Numbered from the stretch's first letter, positions 19,331 to 23,543 are shown. The stretch is 64,000 bases of DNA from Kofleriaceae bacterium (GCA_018057825.1 JAGPCY010000005.1:186001-250000), one strand, 5' to 3'. Numbers and translations: made by a program. The notes: generated from the letters alone by a model not told the origin.

Positions 19331-22246
19331 ATGGTCGCCATGTCTCCGCGCTCGGCGGTCCTCGCCGTCCTCGTCGCCGCCACCGGCCTGGCCCAGGCCG
19401 CGCCCGCCGATCCTGCTGTCATCATCGACGACGATCCGGCGGCGATCCCCGAGCGCTGGCGCACCGGCGTCGCCCTCGGCGCCGATCGGTCCGGCGATCT
19501 GCGCAGGGCGGCGCGCGCGATCCTCGACGCCGCCGCGGTCGCGCCCGAGCGCGCGCTCACCCTCGCCGACGCCGCCGCCCTGGGCGCGCCGGTATCCGCG
19601 GCCTTCGAGCCGCCGCCGACCATCCGGGTCTGGCGCCGCGGCCTCGACGGCTCGACGTCGTCGTGCGCGGGGCGGGTCGACGTCCTGCCCTTCGAGCGCT
19701 ACGTCCGCGGCGTCTTGCCGCACGAGTGGATCCGCTCGTGGAACGCCGAGTCGCTCAAGGCCGGCGCGGTGGCGATCCGCACCTACGCCGCGTACTGGGT
19801 CGGGGCCGGCGGCAAGTACGAGTGCGCCGATCTCGACGACACCACCGCGTCGCAGGTGTACCGCGACGCGGTCTACCCCGAGAGCGACGCCGCGGTCCTC
19901 GCCACCGCCGGCGTCTACGTGGTGCGCGACGACCAGCCGGTCCTCGCCGAGTACAGCGCCGAGAACGGCGATCCCACCGCGACCGGCGTCAGCGAGCCGC
20001 TGTGCGCCGGACGCACCGTCAACGGCCACGGCCGCGGCACCTGTCAGTGGGGCACCCAGCGCTGGGCCCAGGACGGCCAGACCTGGGACTGGATCGTCGC
20101 GCACTACTACCCGGGGGCGACCCTGGCGACCCCGCGACCGGCGCTGGCGGCCACGCTGACCGGCGCCGCGCCGACCTTCGCGATGGCGAGCGGCGACGAG
20201 ATGGTGGTCTATCTCGAGTACGCCAACGACGGCAGCGCGACCTGGCGCCGCGACCAGATCTTCGTCGGCACCACCGGCCCGCGCGATCGCGCCAGCGCGT
20301 TCTGGAAGGCCGAGAACTGGCTCGATCCCGGGCGCCCGACCAGCGTCGACGCCGAGGTCGCGCCGGGCGCGGTCGGGCGGTTCACCTGGGCGATGGTGGC
20401 GCCCGAGGTCGATGAGCCCACGACCTTCGTCGAGACCTTCGGCCTGGTCACCGCCGACGGCGCGTGGTTCGGGCCGGCCGACGACGCGGTGGCCATGACC
20501 ATCACGGTCACGCCGCGCGAGACGGTGGACGGGCGGCCGGAGCAGGGCGGATGCTCGGCGGGCGGCGGCGACGTCGGGCTGGTGGCGATGTCGCTGGCGG
20601 TCGCCTTGGCGGTCGCGAGCCGTCGACGGCGGCTGGCCGCGATCGCGGCTGCGGCGATCCTCGGCTGTGCCGGCCCCGACGCCCCCACGCCCGGGCCGCG
20701 GTACGGCGACGCCGTCGGCGGCCCGTCGGAGCTGGCCGCGGTGTTCCGTCAGGTCGCGTCGGAGTCTGGCGTGCCGGCCGAGGTGCTGGCGGCGCTCGCC
20801 TACCACGAGACCCGCCTGGCGATGATCGCGCCCGAGCCCGACCACGATCACGGCCCGGCGGCCTGGGGCGTGTTCGCGTTGACCGATCACGACGGTCCCC
20901 GTGGCGTGGCCCGCGCGGCCGCCCTGTCCGGCCTGGCGGTCGAGCAGGTGCGCACCGATCCGCTGGCCCACGTCCGGGCCGGCGCCGCCCTCCTGGCCGC
21001 CCACGCCGAGGGCCGCCCGACCACGCTGGCCGGCTGGCGGACCGCCCTCGCGCGGTTCGGTGGCGATGGCGTCGTCGGCGCCGCGCTAGCCGACGGCGTC
21101 CTCGCGACCGTGGCCCGCGGCGCCCGCGGCGTCGACGACGCCGGCCGCAGCCTGACGGTGACCGCCCGTCCGATGCCGGGCCTCGACGAGCCGCCGGCCA
21201 CGCGGCCGGCCGCCCTCGGCTTCCCCGGCGCGCGCTGGGTCCCGGCGGTGGCCGGCAACTATCGGGTCGCCAACCGCGGCGCCGCCGACATCAACTACAT
21301 CGTCGTCCACACCACCCAGGGCAGCTACAACGGCGCGATCAGCTGGTTCCAGAACCCGGCCGCCGAGGTCAGCGCCCACTACGTGATCCGGTCGTCCGAC
21401 GGCGACCTGACCCAGATGGTCGACGACAAGGACATCGCGTACCACGACGCCTGCTTCAACACGAACTCGATCGGCATCGAGCACGAGGGCTTCGTCGCCG
21501 ATCCGGGCCGCTGGTACACCGAGGCGATGTACATGAAGTCGGCGGCGGTGACCGCGTGGTTGTGCGACGCCTACGGCATCCCCAAGGATCGGATGCACAT
21601 CTACGGACACGGGGACGCGCCCGACTGCTCGAGCCACACCGATCCCGGCCCGGGCTGGAACTGGGAGCACTACCTGGCGCTGGTCACCGGCAGCGGCGCG
21701 CCGACGCTGGGGGCCACCGCCGGCGCCCGCGAGTTCCCGACGACCATGACCAGCGGCGAGGAGGCGGTGGCCTACTTCGAGTTCGTCAACGACTCGTCGA
21801 TCACCTGGGGCCTCGACGAGACCCGCCTGGGCACCGCCGAGCCGAGCGATCGCGCGTCGGCGTTCTTCGTCGATGGCAACTGGCTGTCGCCGACCCGCGC
21901 CACCGGCGCCGATCACTCGAACTACGGCCCGGGCGTGACCGGCCGCTTCACGTTCGCGATCCGCGCGCCCGAGGTCGATCGCCCGACCGCGTTCCGCGAG
22001 GCCTTCCAGCTCGTGCAGGAGGGCGTCGGCTGGTTCGGCCCGGTGGTCTACCTCGAGGTGATGGTCTCGCCGCGCGGCGGTGGTTCGGGCTCGGGCTCCG
22101 GCTCGGGCTCGGGGTCGGGCTCCGGCTCGGGGAACGACCCCGGGGGCCAGGCCGAGGGCGGGTGCGCGACCGGCGGTGGCGGTGGGTTCGGCCTCTGTGC
22201 CATCCTGGCCGCGCTTGCGTTCCGTCGCCGCCGCGCTCGCCGCTAG
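19331..22246 (+). CDS. SpoIID-type protein fused in frame to an amidase lipoprotein
   Basis: A 971-residue reading frame that reads as two secreted proteins joined without a stop. Part 1: signal peptide (MSPRSAVLAVLVAATGLAQA), SpoIID-like domain (about 115-270), an Ig-like domain (about 290-395), then a MYXO-CTERM tail with Cys408, a hydrophobic helix and RRRR. Part 2 begins inside that tail: the Arg run, LAAIAAAAILGC (lipobox Cys446), a lytic-transglycosylase-like helical region (HETR), an N-acetylmuramoyl-L-alanine amidase-like domain (about 650-790), a second Ig-like domain homologous to the first, a Gly-Ser linker and another MYXO-CTERM tail. Both parts would act on peptidoglycan. An internal start (ATG 20588 or TTG 20606) could give a separate part 2. 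A missed stop or sequencing error cannot be excluded. Confidence 0.85.
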   Translation: MVAMSPRSAVLAVLVAATGLAQAAPADPAVIIDDDPAAIPERWRTGVALGADRSGDLRRAARAILDAAAVAPERALTLADAAALGAPVSAAFEPPPTIRVWRRGLDGSTSSCAGRVDVLPFERYVRGVLPHEWIRSWNAESLKAGAVAIRTYAAYWVGAGGKYECADLDDTTASQVYRDAVYPESDAAVLATAGVYVVRDDQPVLAEYSAENGDPTATGVSEPLCAGRTVNGHGRGTCQWGTQRWAQDGQTWDWIVAHYYPGATLATPRPALAATLTGAAPTFAMASGDEMVVYLEYANDGSATWRRDQIFVGTTGPRDRASAFWKAENWLDPGRPTSVDAEVAPGAVGRFTWAMVAPEVDEPTTFVETFGLVTADGAWFGPADDAVAMTITVTPRETVDGRPEQGGCSAGGGDVGLVAMSLAVALAVASRRRRLAAIAAAAILGCAGPDAPTPGPRYGDAVGGPSELAAVFRQVASESGVPAEVLAALAYHETRLAMIAPEPDHDHGPAAWGVFALTDHDGPRGVARAAALSGLAVEQVRTDPLAHVRAGAALLAAHAEGRPTTLAGWRTALARFGGDGVVGAALADGVLATVARGARGVDDAGRSLTVTARPMPGLDEPPATRPAALGFPGARWVPAVAGNYRVANRGAADINYIVVHTTQGSYNGAISWFQNPAAEVSAHYVIRSSDGDLTQMVDDKDIAYHDACFNTNSIGIEHEGFVADPGRWYTEAMYMKSAAVTAWLCDAYGIPKDRMHIYGHGDAPDCSSHTDPGPGWNWEHYLALVTGSGAPTLGATAGAREFPTTMTSGEEAVAYFEFVNDSSITWGLDETRLGTAEPSDRASAFFVDGNWLSPTRATGADHSNYGPGVTGRFTFAIRAPEVDRPTAFREAFQLVQEGVGWFGPVVYLEVMVSPRGGGSGSGSGSGSGSGSGSGNDPGGQAEGGCATGGGGGFGLCAILAALAFRRRRARR
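22081..22131 (+). repeat. coding Gly-Ser hexamer repeat
   Basis: GGCTCG/GGCTCC hexamers encode a (Gly-Ser)n linker before the terminal MYXO-CTERM tail of the SpoIID/amidase fusion. Unlike the intergenic arrays, the variable position here is usually G or C. Confidence 0.85.
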
Positions 22247-23543
22247 CTCGCTCGTCGCCGGCGCCGCCTGCGATGGCGCGGTCACGTTGACGATCGCCAG
22301 CGATCGCGCCGTGCCCGGCGAGCTCGACGGCTTCTGCGTCGGCGTCGCCGATCGCGATCTCGGCGGGGGACGCTTCGGGCGTCGCTACCGGCTGGCGCCG
22401 CCGCTCGACGGACTGCCCCAGACCCTGGCCCTCGAGCCGGGCGCCGCCGACGCCGCCTGGGCCTGGGCGGTCGGGACCCGGGCCGGGGTCCCGGTGGTCG
22501 ACGGCGCGGTCGCGGTCGACTTCGCGCGCGACGTCGCCGTGCGGCTCGATCGGTGCCCGGCCGCGCGCGCGGGGGCGATCGAGCTGTCGACGGTCGCCGG
22601 GCCTGGCGGGGCCTTCGCGGTGGCGTCGCGGGGGCCCGGCGGCACCCTGGCGGTCGCGGTCGCCGCCGATCGCGCCGCGGTGGTCGATGTCCGCGGCGGC
22701 GCGCTCGTCCTCGAGGAGCTCCCCGGGGTCGGTGGCGATGCGGTCGTGGCCGCCGATCTCGACGGCGACTGCGCCGACGATCTGGCGGTCGCCCGCGGCG
22801 GGGTGGTCGAGCTGTGGTGGCGCGCCGGCCGCGGCTTCACCCGCGGCCCCGACCTGGCGGGGGCGGCCGCCGCCCTGGCGGCTGCCGACGTCGACGGCGA
22901 CGGCGATCTCGACCTGGCGACTGGCGTCGGCGCGACCCTGACCCTGTGGCGCGGCGACGGCGTCGGCGGCTTCGCCGTGGCCGCCGGCGGCCTCGACCCG
23001 CGCGGCGCGGTGACCGCGGTGACCGCGCTCGCCTTCGGCGACCTCGACCGCGACGGCCACGCCGATCTGCTGGTCGGCCAGGGCGGCGGGCCGGTGGTTG
23101 CGCTCCTCGGCGATCCGGCCGGGGCCGGGGTCCTCACCGCCGCGCCGGGCGCGGTCCCGGCCACGCCGCGGACGGTCGCCGCGCTGACCCTGGGCGATCT
23201 CGACGGCGATGGCGCCGACGACGCGGTGGTCGCGGTCGCCGGCGCGCCGCCGCGGGTCCTCATCAACCGCGGCGGACGCCTCGAGGATCAGAGCTTCGTC
23301 CGGCTTCCGGACAACCTGGGCCCGGCGGTCGGCGTCGCGCTCGGCGACTGGAGCGGCGACTGCGCCGCAGATGTGATCGCCGCCGGGCCGACCTCGGCGG
23401 CGCTGGTCGGGGCGGACGGCGTCCTCGGCGCCGAGGCCACCTGGCCGGCCGCGACCGCGGCCCTGGCCCTCGATCTCGACGACGACGGCGCGGTCGATCG
23501 CCTGGTGGTCGGCCCCGACGGCGCGGCCTGGGGGCGGCGATGA
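22197..23543 (+). CDS. FG-GAP/VCBS repeat lipoprotein
   Basis: A 448-residue predicted lipoprotein. The signal peptide ends in VAGAAC, followed by a beta-rich region and at least five calcium-binding-like loops (DLDGDCADDL, DVDGDGDLDL, DLDRDGHADLL, DLDGDGADDA), the pattern of FG-GAP/VCBS beta-propellers. Such proteins are extracellular and bind ligands or calcium; no catalytic motif is seen. The GTG start was chosen; a TTG at 22215 is equally plausible. Either start lies inside the end of the upstream amidase gene in another frame. It ends in an ATGA overlap with the TPR-like gene, suggesting a co-expressed envelope set. Confidence 0.8.
   Translation: MPSWPRLRSVAAALAASSLVAGAACDGAVTLTIASDRAVPGELDGFCVGVADRDLGGGRFGRRYRLAPPLDGLPQTLALEPGAADAAWAWAVGTRAGVPVVDGAVAVDFARDVAVRLDRCPAARAGAIELSTVAGPGGAFAVASRGPGGTLAVAVAADRAAVVDVRGGALVLEELPGVGGDAVVAADLDGDCADDLAVARGGVVELWWRAGRGFTRGPDLAGAAAALAAADVDGDGDLDLATGVGATLTLWRGDGVGGFAVAAGGLDPRGAVTAVTALAFGDLDRDGHADLLVGQGGGPVVALLGDPAGAGVLTAAPGAVPATPRTVAALTLGDLDGDGADDAVVAVAGAPPRVLINRGGRLEDQSFVRLPDNLGPAVGVALGDWSGDCAADVIAAGPTSAALVGADGVLGAEATWPAATAALALDLDDDGAVDRLVVGPDGAAWGRR

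Follow-up and report, generated by a model that had tools for sequence, protein, structure and literature searches.

Why should one gene place a C-terminal sorting tag and a lipoprotein signal back to back in the middle of its product? The question is raised by a locus in the window (the whole stretch of DNA analysed, 64,000 nucleotides from a Kofleriaceae bacterium), where a single open frame of 971 codons, closed by a TAG at 22244-22246, encodes a SpoIID half and an amidase half without an intervening stop. The parts follow in the order SpoIID - Ig - MYXO-CTERM - lipoprotein signal - lysozyme-like domain - Amidase_2 - Ig - MYXO-CTERM (Table 1). An earlier reading of this DNA (below, the sequence-only reading) offered three explanations: a polyprotein cut into two anchored enzymes, a start inside the first tail, or a lost stop codon.

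Two enzymes and two sorting signals in one frame

Family assignments of the two enzymatic domains are clear. The first scores 59-61 bits against PF08486 (cut-off 23) and 100-103 bits against TIGR02669 (SpoIID_LytB, cut-off 83.3), and its PHEW motif is invariant in the ortholog alignment; the second reaches 108-110 bits against PF01510 (cut-off 26), retrieves an AmpD structure by sequence (E 6.5e-7) and has the zinc ligands His, His and Asp in 37 of 37 homologues. Translation may begin at either of two ATG codons, 19331 or 19340, ahead of the N-terminal signal peptide. The Ig-like domains on the two sides of the junction are 44-47% identical, in agreement with the duplication described in the sequence-only reading. 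The linker ahead of the second tag (22084-22156 in the window) varies strongly by species, with (SG)n, (DPGT)n or (DPSD)n repeats.

Table 1. Features of the fused gene, its downstream neighbour and comparable junctions (window positions unless a contig or locus is named)
Feature	Position	Strand	Basis or remark
SpoIID-amidase frame (putative polyprotein)	19331..22246	+	orthologous fused frames in G003, G006, G002, G009, G030
N-terminal Sec signal peptide MSPRSAVLAVLVAATGLAQA	19340..19402	+	sequence; hydrophobic N-terminus in orthologues; putative cleavage site
SpoIID/LytB lytic transglycosylase-type domain	19613..20125	+	PF08486, TIGR02669
Ig-like domain 1 (N_BRCA1_IG-like, weak)	20126..20530	+	PF16158 19.6 bits, below cut-off 28
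Internal MYXO-CTERM tail	20546..20632	+	TIGR03901; anatomy kept in 6/6 orthologues
Internal lipoprotein signal	20621..20668	+	Arg431-434 n-region, LAAIAAAAILG h-region, lipobox Cys446
Lysozyme/SLT-like helical domain	20720..21133	+	AlphaFold2 model, fold matches
Amidase_2 (AmpD-type N-acetylmuramoyl-L-alanine amidase)	21284..21652	+	PF01510, AmpD structure match, zinc ligands
Ig-like domain 2	21701..22120	+	likeness to Ig-like domain 1
Terminal MYXO-CTERM tail	22157..22243	+	Cys945 (22163-22165), helix, RRRRARR, then TAG; conserved in orthologues
FG-GAP-repeat lipoprotein gene	22197..23543	+	GTG start inside second tail, other frame
Internal tags, own genome	C18:64752, C38:82652, C12:129304, C43:98873 (among L178-L184)		then type I signal and OmpA-domain protein
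Internal tags, own genome	C42:1843, C72:302910		each then lipobox
Internal tag, own genome	C76:1909		then signal-like stretch
VanY - Ig - MYXO-CTERM - lipobox - amidase fusions	L114 (G148), L115 (G123), L116 (G160)

The lysozyme-like domain is the only fairly confident part of an AlphaFold2 model of the amidase half (pLDDT mostly 57-89, except for one loop). The best matches of this partly confident model are MltF, Slt and goose lysozymes, with Z scores of 7-10 (up to 10.2), and Foldseek on the amidase-half structure returned no match below E 0.001. The Glu at the catalytic position is present in 22 of 36 homologues and replaced by Gln in several; in several homologues the domain may be non-catalytic, perhaps a binding domain.

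At the junction, the four arginines Arg431-434 (20621-20632) serve twice, as the end of the MYXO-CTERM tail, after Cys408 (20552-20554) and a hydrophobic helix, and as the n-region of the lipoprotein signal that leads to Cys446 (20666-20668). All of these elements lie in the one 971-residue frame, just as the sequence-only reading had them. The TIGR03901 score puts the internal tag on the borderline (for a cut-off of 20, 23.2 bits when the whole genome is scanned and 16.7-18.0 for whole proteins), and we count it as a MYXO-CTERM on its anatomy, which is complete: GGCSAGGG with the Cys, helix, RRRR. Its location is atypical, with 537 residues after it; the second tag is C-terminal, as expected of the family. 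The lipoprotein signal, RRRR-LAAIAAAAILG-C, fits the core PS51257-type pattern, as do those of 7 of 9 fused genes. To call it perfect, as was done earlier, is slightly generous, since position -2 is Leu, and its Cys is residue 446 of 971 instead of lying near an N-terminus. Stand-alone orthologues indicate what each signal would do: SpoIID-only proteins have the MYXO-CTERM tail as their C-terminal end and in most amidase-only proteins a lipoprotein signal forms the true N-terminus. A full-length AlphaFold2 model built on a five-sequence alignment has a mean pLDDT of 43 (about 33 for two short helices around the Arg cluster) and was discarded as evidence on a hairpin.

History of the fused gene

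Is the single frame an accident? Among the 56 relatives searched for orthologues, five others have the fused frame: three are congeneric species (62-74% identity), one belongs to another genus of the family and one to another family of the order, with identities of roughly 57-74% over all five. The same in-frame join in five other genomes of two families, at this level of divergence, leaves practically no chance that the frame stems from a mistake in sequencing or assembly or from a stop codon lost recently by accident, an origin for which no evidence was found; in this sense, the lost-stop option of the sequence-only reading is set aside. That reading would have given way to a stop codon between the two parts in close relatives; in the relatives, a stop follows the SpoIID tail only where the locus has no amidase. 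Judged from these comparisons, the single fused gene is old and real.

The MYXO-CTERM Cys, the Arg cluster, the hydrophobic stretch and the Cys at the lipobox position are kept in all six fused orthologues, window included, although the junction sequence is otherwise hardly conserved. Because it persists in five other species in spite of this drift, we consider the succession Cys - helix - Arg - hydrophobic - Cys to be more than chance. A strict lipobox pattern fails in two orthologues, one with LLPAC (G006) and one with a short h-region, nine residues from Arg to Cys (G030).

On contigs that are long enough, the usual neighbours of the locus are a divergent kinase gene and, downstream, an FG-GAP lipoprotein gene and a further conserved gene. 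Counting the window, the census of this locus gives six fused genes, about ten amidases alone, three SpoIID genes alone and one contig that ends before the junction, and in none of the 20 syntenic or related loci examined do the two halves stand side by side as separate genes. Some species of one genus have just the amidase and others just SpoIID, and in the tree the amidases of this genus are nested, weakly supported (83-87), among those of the fused genes. A fused ancestor followed by differential loss of the halves is the likely history. In two of the SpoIID-only proteins, L042 (G005) and L048 (G011), the tail resembles that of the amidase and overlaps the next gene in the same manner, which suggests that the amidase was perhaps deleted between the two Ig-and-tail copies. 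One fused orthologue (G009) has a type 2 domain as its first Ig domain, suggesting gene conversion.

Recurrence of the junction and the question of an internal start

The tag census of this genome rests on a TIGR03901 scan that gave 72 matches, 57 of which have at least 16 bits together with a clear Cys and Arg cluster. Forty-nine of these tails are terminal and eight, window included, are internal. Directly after each of the eight internal tags comes an in-frame signal, either type I-like or lipoprotein (or, failing these, a signal-like stretch). TraB-model matches occur in all three of the four OmpA-type cases that were scanned against NCBIfam. This genome also has a strong MYXO-CTERM tail of 31.7 bits (G000:C43:79680, L185) with a 65-residue Pro/Ala-rich extension past its Arg cluster and no signal peptide.

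In three genomes from a different family, the same junction also joins a VanY-type peptidase to the same amidase subfamily, again flanked by Ig-like domains. Both the MYXO-CTERM Cys and the lipobox-position Cys are kept in all three. In the amidase tree, the VanY fusions form a clade separate from the window's group and have stand-alone paralogues of their own family as sisters, so that this looks like an independent fusion. A profile built from 13 junctions found the layout in 20 of 20 inspected matches in relatives and in 12 of 12 across the phylum: an internal tag, then a type I or lipoprotein signal, then from 150 to more than 500 further residues. These 32 junctions, being selected by the profile, measure breadth and not frequency; the profile-independent frequency is the 8 of 57 in this genome. 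On this record the layout is recurrent in Myxococcota. Among the 32, L232 (G010:C105) brings in another peptidoglycan hydrolase: its internal tag lies between a phosphodiester-glycosidase (NAGPA) domain and a lipoprotein with the parts SH3 - M23 peptidase.

Does such recurrence point to a function for the single gene? Stops between a MYXO-CTERM gene and a signal-peptide gene might simply be lost again and again, the sorting enzymes separating the products anyway and the single gene serving no purpose. This explanation, which concerns why there is one gene and is compatible with cutting, would account for the unrelated partners found at these junctions and for the loss of one or the other half in relatives. 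However, such back-and-forth predicts loci with separate halves, of which the genomes examined hold none, and it does not lead one to expect matching Ig-like domains on the two halves in both independent amidase fusions. We regard it as possible, if on the doubtful side.

An alternative to one chain is a pair of overlapping genes in the same frame, in which a start inside the MYXO-CTERM tail (for example ATG 20588 or TTG 20606) would give a separate amidase besides the read-through product. In-frame ATG, GTG or TTG codons do lie within 10 codons of the Arg cluster in seven of the eight internal junctions of this genome and in five of the six orthologues, the three VanY fusions all have a GTG one or two codons ahead of the cluster, and the next gene does seem to begin inside the second tail. 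However, such codons are found in 35 of the 49 ordinary terminal tails as well and were rejected as uninformative about a second gene. None of the internal junctions has a Shine-Dalgarno-like site, and the position of the start is conserved nowhere among the six orthologues. In one of these (G030) there is no usable start at the junction, its sole TTG coming too close to the lipobox Cys (six codons ahead of it) to make a signal peptide; likewise, the C38 junction of this genome has no start codon before its signal. Moreover, a ribosome coming from upstream would read through anyway where there is no stop. An internal start at the first junction is thus unlikely, given the orthologue that has no usable start, the lack of a conserved position and a codon frequency like that of ordinary tails, and the corresponding option of the sequence-only reading is weakened.

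The next gene provides a natural control. It most likely starts at GTG 22197, a codon that four genomes from two families share in this position: the internal start that is needed, at the second junction, appears conserved across these genomes, in contrast to those at the first. Read in the +1 frame, the second MYXO-CTERM tail also encodes the lipoprotein signal of this next gene (22197-22246). Arg codons of the CGC type, read one base later, become Ala-rich codons and so supply a ready h-region; beyond the tail, the +1 frame of most syntenic relatives is open for at least 200 amino acids, and its beginning is Ala-rich or resembles a lipobox.

A proposed polyprotein and its known counterparts

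We consider it probable that the product is a polyprotein that myxosortase and LspA cut into two lipid-anchored enzymes. The N-terminal signal peptide would export SpoIID-Ig until the helix of the internal MYXO-CTERM halts transfer, leaving the Arg cluster in the cytoplasm; the same cluster, as n-region of the second signal, would then restart export. Its two helices would give the chain the shape of a short hairpin, with both enzymes on the outer side of the inner membrane. A myxosortase of the MrtX type would cut beside the modified Cys408, so that SpoIID-Ig stays anchored at its C-terminal end, Lgt and LspA would modify and cut at Cys446, making the amidase an N-terminal lipoprotein, and the amidase's own C-terminal tail would be processed at Cys945; the outer membrane may be where the products end up. 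In this way one mRNA would yield two enzymes in a 1:1 ratio, the amidase removing peptides from peptidoglycan and the SpoIID glycosidase attacking the glycan so stripped. The polyprotein option of the sequence-only reading thus stands, with the recurrence of the junction in its favour, and it is from the signals that we infer cutting at Cys408 and Cys446.

The machinery that these steps would require has counterparts in this genome: LspA (114 bits), Lgt (128 bits, with three Lgt-family loci) and one locus matching the MrtX model NF040593 with 137.6 bits and E 2.1e-39. The last score lies below the curated cut-off of 180, and we class this locus as an MrtX relative without certifying it as MrtX. 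The authors of the MrtX paper (PMC11980579) describe MrtX as an intramembrane protease that cleaves MYXO-CTERM proteins, in a Cys-dependent manner, in Myxococcus xanthus and in Escherichia coli, and give the enzyme that lipidates the Cys as unidentified. The second Lgt-family gene of our genome (G000:C60:49074-49799, L137) sits between two MYXO-CTERM matches (C60:43964 and C60:54735) and is a candidate MYXO-CTERM acyltransferase.

Must the second signal be cut? In the OmpA-type cases it should be, because their product is expected to leave the inner membrane for the outer membrane, and by analogy a second cut may be obligatory for the window's gene as well. The hairpin could instead stay in the inner membrane as part of an uncut bifunctional protein, tethering SpoIID and amidase, with the two signals as relics. 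A single frame conserved in six genomes is compatible with this, and coupling the two activities is reasonable for an enzyme that uses denuded glycan (PMC6635528). Relics, however, would not be expected to keep both Cys in six of six orthologues and in three of three members of an independent fusion, and similar junctions carry OmpA-domain products destined, it would seem, for the outer membrane; an uncut protein is therefore improbable. The cut polyprotein has a similar enzymatic rationale: Waddlia SpoIID cleaves denuded glycan made with the AmpD-family amidase AmpDh3 (PMC6635528), and co-producing SpoIID with an amidase appears sensible because SpoIID acts on peptide-free glycan, which was prepared in that one study with an AmpD-family amidase.

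Could this be a general polyprotein strategy of Myxococcota, in which an Arg cluster common to a tail and the next signal, a hairpin and two standard sorting proteases (myxosortase with LspA, or myxosortase with signal peptidase I) would give co-produced surface proteins? We put this forward tentatively, with chances a little short of even. If true, about one MYXO-CTERM tag in seven of this genome would be so used, in the present case for a 1:1 supply of amidase and SpoIID glycosidase. In the general view, polyproteins are rare in bacteria. With standard sorting enzymes to do the cutting, a compact and recurrent junction would need no protease of its own, and it would explain how pairs of exported proteins come to be made in fixed ratio. 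The window's chain would also be a clean test substrate in the search for the enzyme that lipidates the MYXO-CTERM Cys, since the lipobox lies 38 residues downstream of that Cys in the same chain. As for annotation, genes of this kind can pass for errors, or only one half may receive a name.

Several known systems share part of this arrangement. The bacterial cytochrome b/c1 polyprotein (FbcH) is a single chain that is split at an internal signal peptide, giving two products that are exported or lodged in the membrane; unlike the window's gene, it has no C-terminal sorting tag, and the enzyme is type I signal peptidase and not LspA. Abdul Halim et al. in 2017 (reference 46 of PMC11980579) reportedly described, to judge by the title, an archaeosortase substrate whose tripartite signal is processed though not C-terminal; that case is archaeal and concerns a different enzyme, and its title speaks of no adjacent second signal. 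Full-text literature searches turned up no relevant bacterial polyprotein in which a signal peptide or lipobox lies inside the chain. The pairing of enzymes recalls the SpoIID-SpoIIP (DMP) machinery of Bacillus engulfment (PMC9600426), where an amidase likewise provides the denuded glycan on which SpoIID works; the window's case differs in its AmpD-type amidase (Amidase_2) and in the encoding of both enzymes by one gene.

The closest counterpart is MXAN_5598 of Myxococcus xanthus, which has an internal MYXO-CTERM and for which a gene fusion with processing of the N-terminal part was proposed (Guo, Haft and Wall 2025, PMC11980579). Like the window's gene, it has a MYXO-CTERM in mid-frame followed by a second exported product, and four cases of our own genome resemble it further (a repeat-rich region, the tag, an OmpA-domain protein). 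The window's gene differs in that its second signal is of the lipoprotein type, that two peptidoglycan hydrolases are joined and that the second product ends in another MYXO-CTERM. A signal peptide behind the tag goes unmentioned in the passages considered, whereas here the sharing of the Arg cluster with the next signal peptide is explicit and recurrent. Our comparisons, then, add lipoprotein signals, peptidoglycan hydrolases and many loci to what was a single published case.
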